Shown in pieces: positions 10,406 through 17,578 of a DNA stretch of 64,000 nucleotides. How positions within the stretch are numbered: position 1 is the first letter of the stretch; the number at the start of each line of letters is the position of its first letter. The stretch comes from an uncultured Paracoccaceae bacterium (lineage in GTDB: Bacteria; Pseudomonadota; Alphaproteobacteria; Rhodobacterales; Rhodobacteraceae): the NCBI GenBank assembly GCA_913041145.1, contig CAJWHE010000007.1, positions 1 to 64,000 on the forward strand. The letters run 5' to 3'. Under the pieces are notes generated by a model. It was not told where the DNA came from and did not search any database. It saw nothing but the letters and a program-made list of their open reading frames with translations. A program made the position numbers and the translations under genes.

Positions 10406-12217
10406 TTACCTTTCAAACCACCAAACGTCTGGTAAGAAATTTATCCAATCGCCATAAGCTGGCAGATAATCTGGGTATTTTAAGTTTGAATCATGGGCAA
10501 GCATAGAATAGGGCGAGTACCAAATTGGCACTACATATCTTCCAGAAGTTAATATTCGATCTAAAGCCCTAACTGCAGATATATAATCCTCTCTATCTGG
10601 AGAGTTTAACATAAGTCTTACCATCTCTTCTGCTGCCGTAGAATTGATACCCATCCAATTTCTAGAGCCTGGATTATTAACACCACTTGAGCCCCAATAT
10701 AAAAGTTGTTCGTTGCCAGGGCTTAATGATAAACCTCGCCTATAGTATGTCATATCAAAGTCATAGAGGTTGGTCCGCTCTTTATATTGAGCGCTATCAA
10801 TAATTGTGACCTTAGGAAATATCCCCAATCGTTTAAGCGACTCTAAATATATATTAGCAATAGCTTTTAGTTCAGAGCTCCCTTGTCTTAAAAGAATCTC
10901 AAATGAGAATGATTTATTATTACTATCTCTCAAAATTCCATCAACCACCCTATAACCTGCCTCCTCTAGCAAGTTAGAGGCCTTGATTATACCAGCTCTA
11001 TTTCGTTCAGAACCATTTGAAATCGGTAGATCATACCCTTCTAGTGCTCCAGGCAATAACTCACTTGAAAATGGTAATAAAAAGTCTTTTACTTTCCCAA
11101 CAGCTGGCCCCTCCTCTTTACCCAGTACTGAATTTGAAAAATAAGAAGTAACTCTTGGCATTTTTCCGTTATTTAATTTTTTATTTATAAATTCGAAATT
11201 AAAAGCTTGGATTAATGCTTCTCGCACACGCCAGTCTTTAAATAAGGGTTTCCTAGTATTCATCACAAAGCCCGATATCCCGGAAGGCCTCTTATGTGGA
11301 ATTATTGACTTAGTAATTTCTCCATTTTTTATTTTAGGAAAGTCGTACTGTTGATCCCATTTCGCACCATTAGATTCACGTAAAGAGCTTAGTTTTCCAA
11401 TTTTAAACGCTTCTTTAAGAGCGTTACCATCTGCAAAAAATTCTATTCTAATTTCATCAACATTGTTAGTGCCACGACGAAACGGTAGATCCCTACCCCA
11501 ATAATTCTTATTTCTTTTAAGTCTTATGAATTTTCCAGCCTCAAAATCCCTAATTACGTAAGGCGCGGTCGAGATGGGTACCATCTGCAGACCACTTTCC
11601 TTAAAACTATGCTCTTGCCACTGTGCTTTTTTCAAGATCGGCCTTAAACCCATAATTAGAGCTAGCTCTCTGTCAGGTTCATTAAATACAAATTTAACCT
11701 TTTGGTTTGAAATTTTTTCAGATTTTTTGATTTTTTTCCAAGTATTAGCGTATCGTGGGTGCCCAATTGTTCCAAGTGTTTCGTACGACCACAATACATC
11801 ATCAGCGGTAACAATGGATCCATCAGAAAACTTGGCACCTTTTCTAATGGTAAACTCCACCCATAGACCCTTGGGATCAACTTCTATCGATTCGGCAAGT
11901 AAACCATAAAGAGTAAACGGTTCGTCCCAACTTCTACCCATAAGGCTTTCATAGGCTAAAAAACGAAGTTGCCAGGGTACCCTTCCCTTTCTGATGTGAG
12001 GATTAAGGGAATCAAAGCTCCCAACTTCGCCAGTAACATAAACCCCTCCTTTTGGTGCATTTTTGTTTACGTAAGGAAGGGACACAAAATCTTGTGGTAA
12101 AGCAGGCTTTCCATACATAGATATCCCATGCTGCGCTTCAGCGATGACATTTAAAGAACAAAAAAAACTAAAACAAAGAAGTGTTAAAACTGATATTATT
12201 TTACCTTTAGTTTTCAT
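10406..12217 (-). CDS. YejA-like extracellular solute-binding protein (family 5)
   Basis: A 603-residue periplasmic binding protein with a Sec signal peptide (about 26 residues, ending ...VIAEAQ). It starts with the YejA hallmark HGISMYGKPALPQDF and YVNKNAPKGG, then GEVGSFDSLNPHI, all seen in the YejA branch of the peptide/opine SBP_bac_5 family. In E. coli YejA works with YejB, YejE and YejF, and the family is linked to uptake of oligopeptides, including peptide antibiotics. No permease or ATPase gene adjoins it here: neighbours are an acetyltransferase and a candidate small RNA. It may use a transporter encoded elsewhere, or the Dpp-type system at 38.9-44.5 kb. Confidence 0.9.
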   Translation of the reverse strand: MKTKGKIISVLTLLCFSFFCSLNVIAEAQHGISMYGKPALPQDFVSLPYVNKNAPKGGVYVTGEVGSFDSLNPHIRKGRVPWQLRFLAYESLMGRSWDEPFTLYGLLAESIEVDPKGLWVEFTIRKGAKFSDGSIVTADDVLWSYETLGTIGHPRYANTWKKIKKSEKISNQKVKFVFNEPDRELALIMGLRPILKKAQWQEHSFKESGLQMVPISTAPYVIRDFEAGKFIRLKRNKNYWGRDLPFRRGTNNVDEIRIEFFADGNALKEAFKIGKLSSLRESNGAKWDQQYDFPKIKNGEITKSIIPHKRPSGISGFVMNTRKPLFKDWRVREALIQAFNFEFINKKLNNGKMPRVTSYFSNSVLGKEEGPAVGKVKDFLLPFSSELLPGALEGYDLPISNGSERNRAGIIKASNLLEEAGYRVVDGILRDSNNKSFSFEILLRQGSSELKAIANIYLESLKRLGIFPKVTIIDSAQYKERTNLYDFDMTYYRRGLSLSPGNEQLLYWGSSGVNNPGSRNWMGINSTAAEEMVRLMLNSPDREDYISAVRALDRILTSGRYVVPIWYSPYSMLAHDSNLKYPDYLPAYGDWINFLPDVWWFER

Positions 12218-12288
12218 TACTTGGACCTCGATAAGTTGTTGTAATAATACTAGTTAACTAAAAATTTATAATATTAAAACTTTTAACT

Positions 12289-12316
12289 TTGACTTACTTT
12301 CTAATTTCTTTATAAA
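12289..12316 (+). promoter_or_regulatory. Predicted promoter of the candidate small RNA
   Basis: TTGACT (12289-12294), a 16-nt spacer and TATAAA (12311-12316) make a near-consensus sigma-70 promoter. The predicted start is near 12323, and a strong intrinsic terminator lies about 70 nt downstream with no protein-coding frame between. Confidence 0.6.
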
Positions 12317-12322
12317 CAGTTT

Positions 12323-12397
12323 ACTGCTCGATAGGTTTCTGCCTGTATGAAACCTGCCTCAATAACTCAGCGCCAGCTTCGGCTGGCGTTTTTTTTT
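12323..12397 (+). ncRNA. Candidate small regulatory RNA of about 75 nt
   Basis: The interval is bounded by a good promoter (12289-12316) and a strong terminator, with no gene upstream on this strand: the neighbouring YejA-like gene runs the other way. It folds simply. AGGTTTC (12333-12339) pairs perfectly with GAAACCT (12349-12355) around the loop TGCCTGTAT; a single-stranded GCCTCAATAACTCA follows, then the terminator hairpin with a 9-nt T run. The pyrimidine-rich TGCCT and GCCTC stretches could pair with Shine-Dalgarno regions, and the T-rich 3' end suits Hfq binding. I do not recognise an Rfam family. Confidence 0.6.
12371..12397 (+). terminator. Strong intrinsic terminator of the candidate sRNA
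   Basis: CGCCAGC (12371-12377), the stable tetraloop TTCG and GCTGGCG (12382-12388) form a 7-bp GC-rich stem followed by nine T residues. It is oriented to end plus-strand transcription. Confidence 0.9.
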
Positions 12398-12729
12398 GAT
12401 AAACTAAGTTCTCATATTCTCTCTACATCTACGTACTTTAAAAGTAATCAGTTTATTCAATCTTTAAATAAATAATATAGTTTGCTTCACTTTAAAATTA
12501 CTAACTGATTAAAAAAAAACCTATCATAATTTGGTATCATGTATCCTTATTTTAATTAAAGATATGCAATAAATAACTTTATTGAATTATAGAATTTAAA
12601 TAATAATTTAATTTAAGTACATTTTAACAAATTTTAGGTTGCAAATCTCATAAGTTGAGACCATCATCGGTTAAGCTTGATTAAAATTGATCAATAGCTG
12701 TCAAAAATAAACTAAGGAGGAATGTTAAT
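12398..12729. other. AT-rich upstream region of the second TRAP operon
   Basis: About 330 bp without a gene. It must hold the promoter of the TakP-like operon, but it is so AT-rich that no single -35/-10 pair stands out. The palindrome TTGATCAA (12687-12694), in the context TTGATTAAAATTGATCAA, is a possible operator. AAGGAGG (12714-12720) is the strong ribosome-binding site of the next gene. Confidence 0.4.
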
Positions 12730-13911: not shown

Positions 13912-14907
13912 ATGGTTCCATCAACCCCCACCTCTCAAACTACATTAGATGGCCAGCCGGCTATACTAGTTCGTTCCGTAGGCTGGTTAACTTTAGCATT
14001 TTTAGTAGCTTTTCTGATAAATAATATCTTACTATTAGGATTTGGGATTCCTTCGGGGCGAGAGTTATTTTCTGATCCATCTATTAGAAACTTAATACAG
14101 CCCTTAGTTTATGTTATTTGCTTTCTAAGTATAATTTATTGGGTAAATAAAACACCAAATAGAACTTTACGTACTGACGCAATTCAAATCACAAACTTCA
14201 ATACTTACTTTATCCGTGCTTGCTTTTTTTCAGTCTTATTTGTTGGAGTAGTAGATGCGTCCATTGCCTGGCTCCGAGTGGAAAGTTTACTGCCAGTATT
14301 GTTTAATGAGGCTACAGCATCAGCTCTCCTACGTTCTAGTTTTATAGGAACAATGATACATATCCCTCTTATAATTTTAGGTTTTATTATTGCATTGTTC
14401 ACCCGTACCTTAGGATTTTTTTGGCTTGCATTAATGATTGTTGGAGCAGAGCTTTTGATAGTTATTTCAAGGTTTGTTTTTTCTTATGAACAATCTCTTA
14501 TGGGAGATTTAGTGCGGTACTGGTATGCCGCACTCTTTTTATTTGCTTCTGCATACACGCTTCTCCAGGAGGGCCACGTCAGGGTGGATATTCTATACTC
14601 TGGGTTCAATTCTCGAAAAAAAGGTAAAGTAAACGCTTACGGCTCAGTATTTCTTGGAATGATGACAGCTATAACAATATTTTTAATTTGTCTCTGGTCT
14701 AAGCAGGCGATTGTTAATTCACCAGTAATGAATTTTGAAGTCACACAAACTGGAACTGCGGGTATGTATACAAAATACCAAATGGCTGCATTCTTATTGA
14801 TTTTTGCTATTACAATGCAAATACAATTCGTAAGTTCTTTTTTAGAATCCGTAGCTGATATTAGAAATGAGCCAGGTAAGCGAGAAGTCGCTCCTATTTC
14901 ACACTAA
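13912..14907 (+). CDS. TRAP small permease subunit, enlarged
   Basis: This 331-residue membrane protein is clearly longer than a normal DctQ (about 160-240). Its C-terminal half carries the DctQ-like part with the conserved LLQEGHVRVDILYSGF (about 221-236) between membrane helices. The first 190 residues add about four further hydrophobic segments. I chose the ATG at 13912 because GGAG lies 7 bases upstream; an in-frame TTG directly before it is an alternative. It follows the binding protein after a hairpin and ends 10 bp before the large permease start. Confidence 0.85.
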   Translation: MVPSTPTSQTTLDGQPAILVRSVGWLTLAFLVAFLINNILLLGFGIPSGRELFSDPSIRNLIQPLVYVICFLSIIYWVNKTPNRTLRTDAIQITNFNTYFIRACFFSVLFVGVVDASIAWLRVESLLPVLFNEATASALLRSSFIGTMIHIPLIILGFIIALFTRTLGFFWLALMIVGAELLIVISRFVFSYEQSLMGDLVRYWYAALFLFASAYTLLQEGHVRVDILYSGFNSRKKGKVNAYGSVFLGMMTAITIFLICLWSKQAIVNSPVMNFEVTQTGTAGMYTKYQMAAFLLIFAITMQIQFVSSFLESVADIRNEPGKREVAPISH

Positions 14908-14917
14908 GGAAAAATCA

Positions 14918-17578
14918 ATGGAATTATTTTTTCTAGCAGTACTTGTAATAATAATGGCTACAGCACTCGGCTCTGGTTACCCTGTAGCTTTTGCTTTGCC
15001 TGGTGCAGCTATAATAACAATTATTCTTGCCGGAGTATCTGGTCTAGTTTTCTCAGGAGATCCATCTGCCTACTTTCATCAAGGAGGACCGTCTCAATGG
15101 CTATCCTCGGGAGTGACAAACCTCAGAGGAGTTTATTGGGAAGTTGAAAGAGATACATTGATAGCAATCCCATTATTTATTTTTATGGGTATTATGCTTC
15201 AAAAGTCTAAAATTGCTGAAGATCTTTTAGTAACAATGGCTAACCTTTTTGGCCCTGTCCCTGGTGGACTTGGAATATCAGTTGTATTTGTGGGCGCACT
15301 GTTAGCTGCAACCACTGGAATAGTTGGGGCTACTGTTGTGGCTATGGGCCTCATATCCTTACCTGCTATGCTAAGAAACAATTATTCCAAACCACTTGCA
15401 TCTGGCACAATTGCTGCATCTGGAACTTTAGGCCAAATAATACCACCATCTATTGTTCTTATTATACTGGCAGATCAACTGGCATCAGCCGCTGATCAAG
15501 CTGGTACAGCTCGCAAACTGCTACACAAAGAGGCAACCGGTGAGCTCTCGATGCCCAGTATGTTTGATGTTGGCTCTACAAGTGCTGGAGAAATGTTTTT
15601 AGGGGCTCTAGTTCCTGGAATTGTTTTAGTCGCCGTATATATGCTATTTATTTTAGTTTTTGCTACTTTCTTTCCAAAGGCAGCACCTGCAGTAAGATAT
15701 AAAGGTGTAATGGATCTAAAGTTTTGGGGTGGTTGTGTATTAACTATAGTTCCTCCACTAGGACTTATTTTTTTAGTTCTTGGGTCGATTATTACTGGAA
15801 TAGCCACAGTAAACCAAGCAGGTGCAATCGGCGCCTCTGGTGCACTAATAATGGCGGGTTATCGCTTGATAGAGGGGACTAAGGCAAGATATTACCCTGC
15901 AATTCTTGCAATACTATCAATACTTTTGATTGCTTTTTGTTTATCAAATTACACCATGAATGTTAAAGCGATTATCGTTAATGGCGGTAATAGTACAGGT
16001 ATCTGGTTGGGTCTATTAGCGACATTAGGTCTAATTACCTCACTGGTTTGGAGTGGACTTAGAGTATTAAAACTAAACAATACGCTTCATGAAGTAATGA
16101 TTGAAACAGCGAAAACAACATCACTAGTATTTATTATTCTACTCGGTGCAGCAATGTTAACAGCTGCGTTTAGAGCCTTTGGCGGTGAGGACCTTGTTAG
16201 GGACTTCCTAAACTCTCTACCAGGCGGTTTTTGGGCAAAGTTTGTTATAGTTATGGCTGTTATCTTTGTACTAGGTTTCTTTTTAGACTTTATTGAAATT
16301 GCTGTTGTCGTCGTGCCAATCGTAGCACCTATACTCCTCGCAGATCCATCTGCTAATATAACTGCAGTATGGTTAGGCGTAATGATTGGACTAAATATTC
16401 AGACCTCATTTCTAACTCCACCATTTGGTTTTGCACTATTTTATCTCAGGGGAGTGGCTCCATCATCTGTCAGAACTGTTGATATATATAAGGGTGTAAT
16501 CGCATTTATCTGCTTACAATTAATTGCACTTGGAATTGTTGGATACTACCCGCAACTTGTTAATTATTTGCCAAATAGAATGAGCCTTTTGGGAGAATCT
16601 TCTCCACCACCAAGAAATCCCAAACTTCAAATCTGTCTAGAAGAGTATTCTAATCTCGAAGTAATTGATAACAAAGATCAAATTTTAGGTACCATAGCTA
16701 AAGCTAAAGCGTTAGATTTAACATTTCTACCAAAGAAAATTTCATCAAATTTAACAGGGGCATTTAGCTCCGCAGAGACCGCCCTTGTACAATTGGATCA
16801 AATATTTATTGCAGAAAAATTAGTCAAAGATAATACTTCCAGTTACCGACCATTATTAACTGTTGTTCGTGGTATTGAAAGTGCGATCAGGAGCGCAGAA
16901 AATGAGTCAAAAGAGCTAAAAGGTTCTTTGGCATATTTGAAATCTGAAGAAGATGTCAAAAAAAGAGAGCAAGTAATTGCTAAAATGAAATCTTTAGAAA
17001 AAGAAATTGTACATCTTAAGTCTGAAATCCCTGACGAGTGGAAGACTACTTACAAAACCTTTAGTAAACTAACTAAAGCTGAAAACAGCGCTAGAATAAA
17101 ATATCGAAGAGCTGCAGACAAATCCTATGAACCCGTATCTGAGTTAGTTCTGATAATTGAAGAAAATGATAAGCTTTTAGCCCTCGAGTCAGAGCTAGTA
17201 TCTCTTAGGGTCTTGATCAACAACGATACTGATGGGGACTCTTTATTAGAAGTTAAAAAATTAGCTAAGAAGTTTGGAAAAGTTAAAGGAGCATCCTCCA
17301 TAAAATCTTCTCTAGGAAAGGTAGCCAGACAGCTCAAGCCAGGTAAGGTCAAACTTGAAAAAGCATTAAAGGAGTATGAAAAATCTCTAAAGATATTTAC
17401 TACTAATAAATCTTGGAGAGTAGCATTAAAGACTAATACTCATAAAGATTTAAAAGAGTACCTAAGTGGTATTGCTGAGAGCATTGGAGCGAGAAAACAA
17501 TCTCAATTAACTCGAAAACAGGGCCTTTATTTAGCAAAATGTGGTGCAATTCATAGGGATATTTCTCTGAATTTCTAA
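14918..17578 (+). CDS. TRAP large permease fused to a C-terminal coiled-coil region
   Basis: The first 550 or so residues are a DctM permease with multiple membrane segments and the signatures LPLFIFM-like AIPLFIFMGIMLQKSKIAEDL (split around residue 75), IIPPSIVLIILADQ (about 171-184) and FLTPPFGFALFYLRG near residue 508. An insert around residues 185-225 (hydrophilic, ending before EMFLGALVPG) is common in TakP-associated permeases. After PNRMSLLGESSPPP the protein continues for about 330 hydrophilic residues rich in Lys, Glu and Leu, with heptad-like stretches such as AKMKSLEKEIVHLKSEI, predicted to be cytoplasmic coiled coil. Total is 886 residues against about 430-640 usually. I chose ATG 14918 because TAAGGA lies 7 bases before it; the frame extends 51 bases further upstream into the preceding gene. 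Confidence 0.88.
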   Translation: MELFFLAVLVIIMATALGSGYPVAFALPGAAIITIILAGVSGLVFSGDPSAYFHQGGPSQWLSSGVTNLRGVYWEVERDTLIAIPLFIFMGIMLQKSKIAEDLLVTMANLFGPVPGGLGISVVFVGALLAATTGIVGATVVAMGLISLPAMLRNNYSKPLASGTIAASGTLGQIIPPSIVLIILADQLASAADQAGTARKLLHKEATGELSMPSMFDVGSTSAGEMFLGALVPGIVLVAVYMLFILVFATFFPKAAPAVRYKGVMDLKFWGGCVLTIVPPLGLIFLVLGSIITGIATVNQAGAIGASGALIMAGYRLIEGTKARYYPAILAILSILLIAFCLSNYTMNVKAIIVNGGNSTGIWLGLLATLGLITSLVWSGLRVLKLNNTLHEVMIETAKTTSLVFIILLGAAMLTAAFRAFGGEDLVRDFLNSLPGGFWAKFVIVMAVIFVLGFFLDFIEIAVVVVPIVAPILLADPSANITAVWLGVMIGLNIQTSFLTPPFGFALFYLRGVAPSSVRTVDIYKGVIAFICLQLIALGIVGYYPQLVNYLPNRMSLLGESSPPPRNPKLQICLEEYSNLEVIDNKDQILGTIAKAKALDLTFLPKKISSNLTGAFSSAETALVQLDQIFIAEKLVKDNTSSYRPLLTVVRGIESAIRSAENESKELKGSLAYLKSEEDVKKREQVIAKMKSLEKEIVHLKSEIPDEWKTTYKTFSKLTKAENSARIKYRRAADKSYEPVSELVLIIEENDKLLALESELVSLRVLINNDTDGDSLLEVKKLAKKFGKVKGASSIKSSLGKVARQLKPGKVKLEKALKEYEKSLKIFTTNKSWRVALKTNTHKDLKEYLSGIAESIGARKQSQLTRKQGLYLAKCGAIHRDISLNF

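Follow-up and report, generated by a model that had tools for sequence, protein, structure and literature searches.

StsR (formerly RSs0827) of Rhodobacter sphaeroides is a small RNA of 72 nt that binds Hfq and depends on RpoHI/RpoHII; its partners are UpsM and the dcw 5' UTR, where it promotes cutting by RNase E, and it slows growth (PMC8307010, PMC11354728). UpsM (RSs0682) is the mraZ-leader RNA of the same species and comprises 206 nt. Under stress it is cut by RNase E in an Hfq- and RpoHI/RpoHII-dependent manner, yielding a 3' fragment of 130 nt, and the long mraZ leader with a terminator was reported to be exclusive to Rhodobacteraceae (PMC5089854). Promoters read by RpoHI/RpoHII are reported to carry TTG at -35 and TAT at about -12 (PMC3441632, PMC10673084).

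A counterpart of StsR is probably encoded in the window, by which the whole stretch of 64,000 nt analyzed here is meant. With a probability of roughly 0.88, the interval 12323-12397 is read as encoding a trans-acting small RNA of the StsR type, an ortholog of StsR, whose pairing would open the leader to RNase E and dampen the division genes under stress. There is strong support for the interval being a genuine small RNA gene equipped with a promoter and a terminator of its own. An earlier note on this DNA had described a promoter (TTGACT, 16 nt, TATAAA) with a start at 12323, a perfect 7-bp hairpin, and a GC-rich 7-bp terminator with a TTCG loop and nine T, all of which are present in the sequence (Table 1). 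The predicted start is a purine, and the terminator consists of CGCCAGC-TTCG-GCTGGCG plus flanking pairs. The 75-nt strand folds with a predicted energy of -24.9 kcal/mol, compared with -15.6 +/- 2.8 for shuffled versions (z -3.3; 0 of 200 shuffles as good). In 149 relatives, the RNA measures 71-80 nt, mostly 74-75, when its T-run is counted up to 7; hairpin 1 has a loop of 9 nt in the window and of 10 nt in most relatives.

Table 1. Parts of the small RNA locus and the adjacent gene (positions in the window)
Feature	Position	Strand	Basis or remark
Conserved element AAACTTTTAACTTTG, partly overlapping the -35 element, otherwise directly upstream	12277..12291	+	family consensus CAAACTTTTAGCTTGGA
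-35 element TTGACT	12289..12294	+	read from sequence
-10 element TATAAA	12311..12316	+	16-nt spacer separates -35 from -10
Putative StsR-type small RNA, about 73-75 nt	12323..12397	+	covariance-model match
Single-stranded 5' end ACTGCTCG, nearly invariant	12323..12330	+	invariant in alignment A2
Hairpin 1, 7-bp stem AGGTTTC/GAAACCT, 9-nt loop TGCCTGTAT	12333..12355	+	sequence, fold, alignment
Predicted target-pairing segment GCCTGTATGAAACCT (loop and 3' arm of hairpin 1)	12341..12355	+	
Terminator stem-loop AGCGCCAGC-TTCG-GCTGGCGTT	12369..12390	+	scan and compensatory changes
Terminator tail, nine T	12389..12397	+	read from sequence
yejA-like extracellular solute-binding protein, family 5	10406..12217	-	SBP_bac_5, E 1.9e-63

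Comparison with other genomes carries the case for the gene. In blastn searches, the interval has a single match in its own genome, occurs in 34 of the 36 same-family genomes searched (own included) and in four Paracoccus replicons, and finds no convincing match in other families. A pattern scan of named genomes yielded at least 118 loci, in which conservation of the core is partly built in by the search pattern. The loci listed all bear Rhodobacteraceae/Rhodobacterales genus names or unresolved alphaproteobacterial titles, and the genera among them include Paracoccus, Ruegeria, Leisingera, Cereibacter, Rubellimicrobium, Neomegalonema, Planktomarina, and others. A covariance model derived from relatives matches the window at 12323-12395 (94.4 bits, E 2.3e-20) and detects the RNA in 198/198 genomes of the order, all from the window's family (Rhodobacteraceae); among about 285 other genomes of the class (Alphaproteobacteria), no score exceeds 31.6 bits, and the seven weak matches outside the family, at most 31.6 bits, are taken as chance. 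Six genomes (G122, G174, G180, G184, G200, and G247) show two matches to the model each, possibly second or partial copies. In Paracoccus pantotrophus (pPAN3) and P. versutus (pTAV4), the gene lies on a secondary replicon of 1.5-1.7 Mb recorded as a plasmid.

Within these loci, the first 40 nt of the RNA show almost no variation: the exact 40-mer ACTGCTCGATAGGTTTCTTGCCTGTATGAAACCTGCCTCA occurs in 25 of 30 blastn loci and the form of the window, with one T fewer, in three of the 30. The stem of hairpin 1 never varies among relatives, and its evidence is therefore one of constraint rather than covariation. The terminator stem changes in sequence and keeps its pairing, with eight of nine pairs altered in both partners. 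For the structure as a whole, pairing holds in 97.8% of cells, and covariation scores 0.307, versus 0.102 in shuffles. The earlier note had proposed conservation of the two stems in close relatives as a check, and this comparison is decisive in its favor; its reading of the interval as a small RNA carrying a promoter and a terminator of its own is borne out by the presence in all 198 genomes, the fixed promoter, and the compensating terminator stem.

The promoter is fixed in place as well, with -35, -10, start, both stems, and T-run at constant spacing across about 147 related loci. Aligned on the core, 147 loci give the consensus CAAACTTTTAGCTTGGA, then TATAaag at a constant distance, then the invariant start ACTGCTCG. 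CTTGG occupies a -35 position fixed relative to the core in about 108-125 of them, TATA lies exactly at the -10 position in 129, and the upstream element reads AAACTTTT in 108. The conservation of CAAACTTTTAGCTTGGA, ahead of and overlapping the -35 element (12277-12291 and homologous positions in relatives), is stronger than that of an ordinary promoter. CenR (TGA-N8-TGA) came into question as the protein reading the conserved AAACTTTTAGCTTGG / CAAACTTTTAGCTTGG element and was set aside because its motif does not fit. In most loci, the TTG/TAT spacing equals the published RpoHI/RpoHII spacing, and sigma-70 fits it too; judged by its spacing, the promoter would be compatible with an RpoH-type sigma factor, of which the window's own genome has one.

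The presumed target lies on another contig. In the window's own genome, 15 nt on contig 4 (8165-8179) are identical to 12341-12355, and mraZ, which heads the division and cell-wall (dcw) cluster, follows immediately on the minus strand. In the 5' to 3' direction, the mraZ leader thus carries AGGTTTCATACAGGC, a perfect 15-nt complement of the loop and 3' arm of hairpin 1. This site is situated about 170 nt upstream of the likely mraZ start codon and 136 nt ahead of the T-run of a strong leader terminator. The earlier note had considered pairing with ribosome-binding sites possible, whereas the main conserved match falls in this distant part of the dcw leader (UpsM). Across 40 mraZ loci of the family, the median perfect complementarity is 16 nt, compared with 7-10 nt for the other strand and 7-11 nt for shuffled RNAs; four of the 40 loci have a match of chance length (8-9 nt). 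When 41 whole family genomes are searched with up to one mismatch allowed, CAGGTTTCATACAGGC usually turns up at just two places, namely within the RNA gene and in the leader of mraZ; its reversed control has zero matches in these genomes. Pairing is predicted to gain a net 10-20 kcal/mol. A second contact is suggested by CGAGCAG, the complement of CTGCTCG in the 5' end of the RNA, which 27 of 36 leaders carry at a distance of 41-61 nt downstream from the main site, a count whose weight is limited by the shared ancestry of the leaders; pairing of this segment is predicted in Cereibacter and has one mismatch in the window's own genome. In another genome (G035, contig 17, 169550-169569), 20 nt perfectly complementary to the RNA immediately precede the start of a flagellar motor gene, called MotB-like from its N-terminal sequence, and might represent a lineage-specific additional target at a ribosome-binding site. 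With rpoE considered as a second target, searches for ChrR had no match in Cereibacter flavus or in the window's genus.

The RNA is in all likelihood the ortholog of StsR, to which it is likened by published target, length, range, and promoter rather than by letters. Cereibacter flavus, of the same genus as R. sphaeroides 2.4.1, carries the small RNA; there, 134 nt separate the end of the pairing site from the 3' end of UpsM, a distance that would be compatible with a site adjoining the required start of the published 130-nt fragment. The UpsM-type leader and the small RNA are each confined to Rhodobacteraceae, and this shared range is counted for the identity. As the likeness is drawn from the description of StsR, a different, undescribed family-wide small RNA might also pair with the dcw leader, with StsR (RSs0827) being another gene. 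This is improbable, given the same target, length (72 nt published; 71-80 here), and family range and a compatible promoter; moreover, the 16-mer complement is usually unique per genome, so that a second RNA acting at the site would be hard to accommodate. A literature text search with the core sequence matched no relevant paper. A further ortholog may be 'Intergenic 134' of P. denitrificans, with a length of 84 nt and, judging from its numbering, a probable location on chromosome 2.

The genomic neighborhood could suggest a different function. A yejA-like gene is divergent from the small RNA in 132 of 139 loci, by eye including Cereibacter flavus; in the window it runs opposite to the RNA, as the earlier note had stated. 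The RNA could accordingly be thought to regulate chiefly this peptide transporter gene via shared or divergent transcription, with the dcw match being secondary. Such a role is very unlikely: the two do not overlap in antisense, seven loci keep the RNA without a yejA-like neighbor, and the invariant loop matches the mraZ leader instead. The genes downstream of the RNA vary between genomes. In the window, a frame of 903 codons at 14867-17578 resembles, by eye, a TRAP large permease at its beginning and closes with a long extension that is charged and coiled-coil-like; its length is unusual for such a permease.

The interval is also crossed by an ATG frame of 42 codons (12347-12475), overlooked in the earlier statement that no open frame lies in it. 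A short protein-coding gene starting at ATG 12347 would agree with this frame being open in the window and with MKPASIT-stop in many relatives. The frame is, however, not conserved: it ends after seven codons in most relatives and after five in many Paracoccus, and is shifted by indels of 1-2 bases in others. As every base of the core is constrained, including third codon positions, a coding function can hardly be maintained.

Generic consensus scans found three promoters versus 5.0 expected and one terminator versus 1.1 expected; the promoter of the small RNA is missing from the list because its -10 box ends in A. On these scans alone, neither element is exceptional, and the case for the gene therefore rests on conservation. 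A functionless chance arrangement of promoter and terminator, with which scans no better than shuffles would agree, is refuted by the RNA's presence in 198/198 genomes and by the compensatory changes.

For the StsR-type RNA preferred here, a course of events can be proposed from R. sphaeroides. Stress and stationary phase would raise transcription of the small RNA through an RpoH-type sigma factor, and the hairpin 1 loop would nucleate pairing with the leader, present in both UpsM RNA and dcw mRNA. Hairpin 1 would then open, its 3' arm lengthening the duplex, whereupon the leader could refold and RNase E cleave just downstream. Less UpsM and dcw mRNA and slower division would be the outcome.

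One part may surprise specialists. Two profile models and a protein search did not find hfq in four genomes of the window's genus (97, 93, 78, and 74% complete), a result subject to the caveat that the assemblies are incomplete or that Hfq may have diverged strongly; the gene is present in each of the nine other family genomes tried. This suggests that Hfq may have been lost in this AT-rich genus. The window's genome nevertheless keeps the small RNA and its site in the mraZ leader, so that, if the loss is true, pairing would be Hfq-independent or proceed via another chaperone. That the family-wide pair of RNA and leader controls the division and cell-wall cluster, and does so without Hfq in the window's genus, is put forward tentatively, at slightly less than even odds. 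In this genus, nature provides a test of whether such long pairing of loop and leader requires Hfq, and Hfq co-precipitation may be impossible there since hfq was not found.

Rhodobacteraceae are a dominant marine and soil family. In one model organism, StsR ties cell division to stress sigma factors. Because the RNA, with its nearly letter-perfect core, and its main target site are maintained throughout the family, the circuit is probably of ancient origin and general, not peculiar to R. sphaeroides. The small RNA merits an Rfam family of its own.

Among described RNAs, Rfam holds nothing for the interval at gathering threshold, and to this extent the earlier view that it belongs to no known family stands; it does not stand as regards the StsR/RSs0827 type, which is absent from Rfam. 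BjrC1505 (RF02356; 27 bits, cut-off 50) and SorY (RF02651; 22.5 bits, gathering cut-off 111) were rejected; both are small alphaproteobacterial RNAs ending in a terminator, and the weak similarity lies mostly in the terminator part. SorX, which originates in the 3' UTR of a gene for an OmpR-type regulator, was set aside, as the window's gene lies beside yejA. RydC of enterobacteria is a small RNA linked to yej transporter genes; the yej link is shared, whereas here yejA is a genomic neighbor, with no apparent sequence relation or pairing. StsR differs from the window's RNA in two respects, namely that the loop is one base shorter in the window's genus and that StsR binds Hfq in R. sphaeroides, whereas this genus has no detectable hfq. 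In common, the two have a length of about 72-75 nt, an intrinsic terminator, an RpoH-compatible promoter, the occurrence in Rhodobacteraceae, and pairing, here by complementarity, with the mraZ/dcw leader (UpsM) beside the region of RNase E cleavage. UpsM is the partner and target of the small RNA, not its homolog, and in the window's own genome, as in other Rhodobacteraceae, the mraZ leader is long and contains both a strong terminator and the pairing site.
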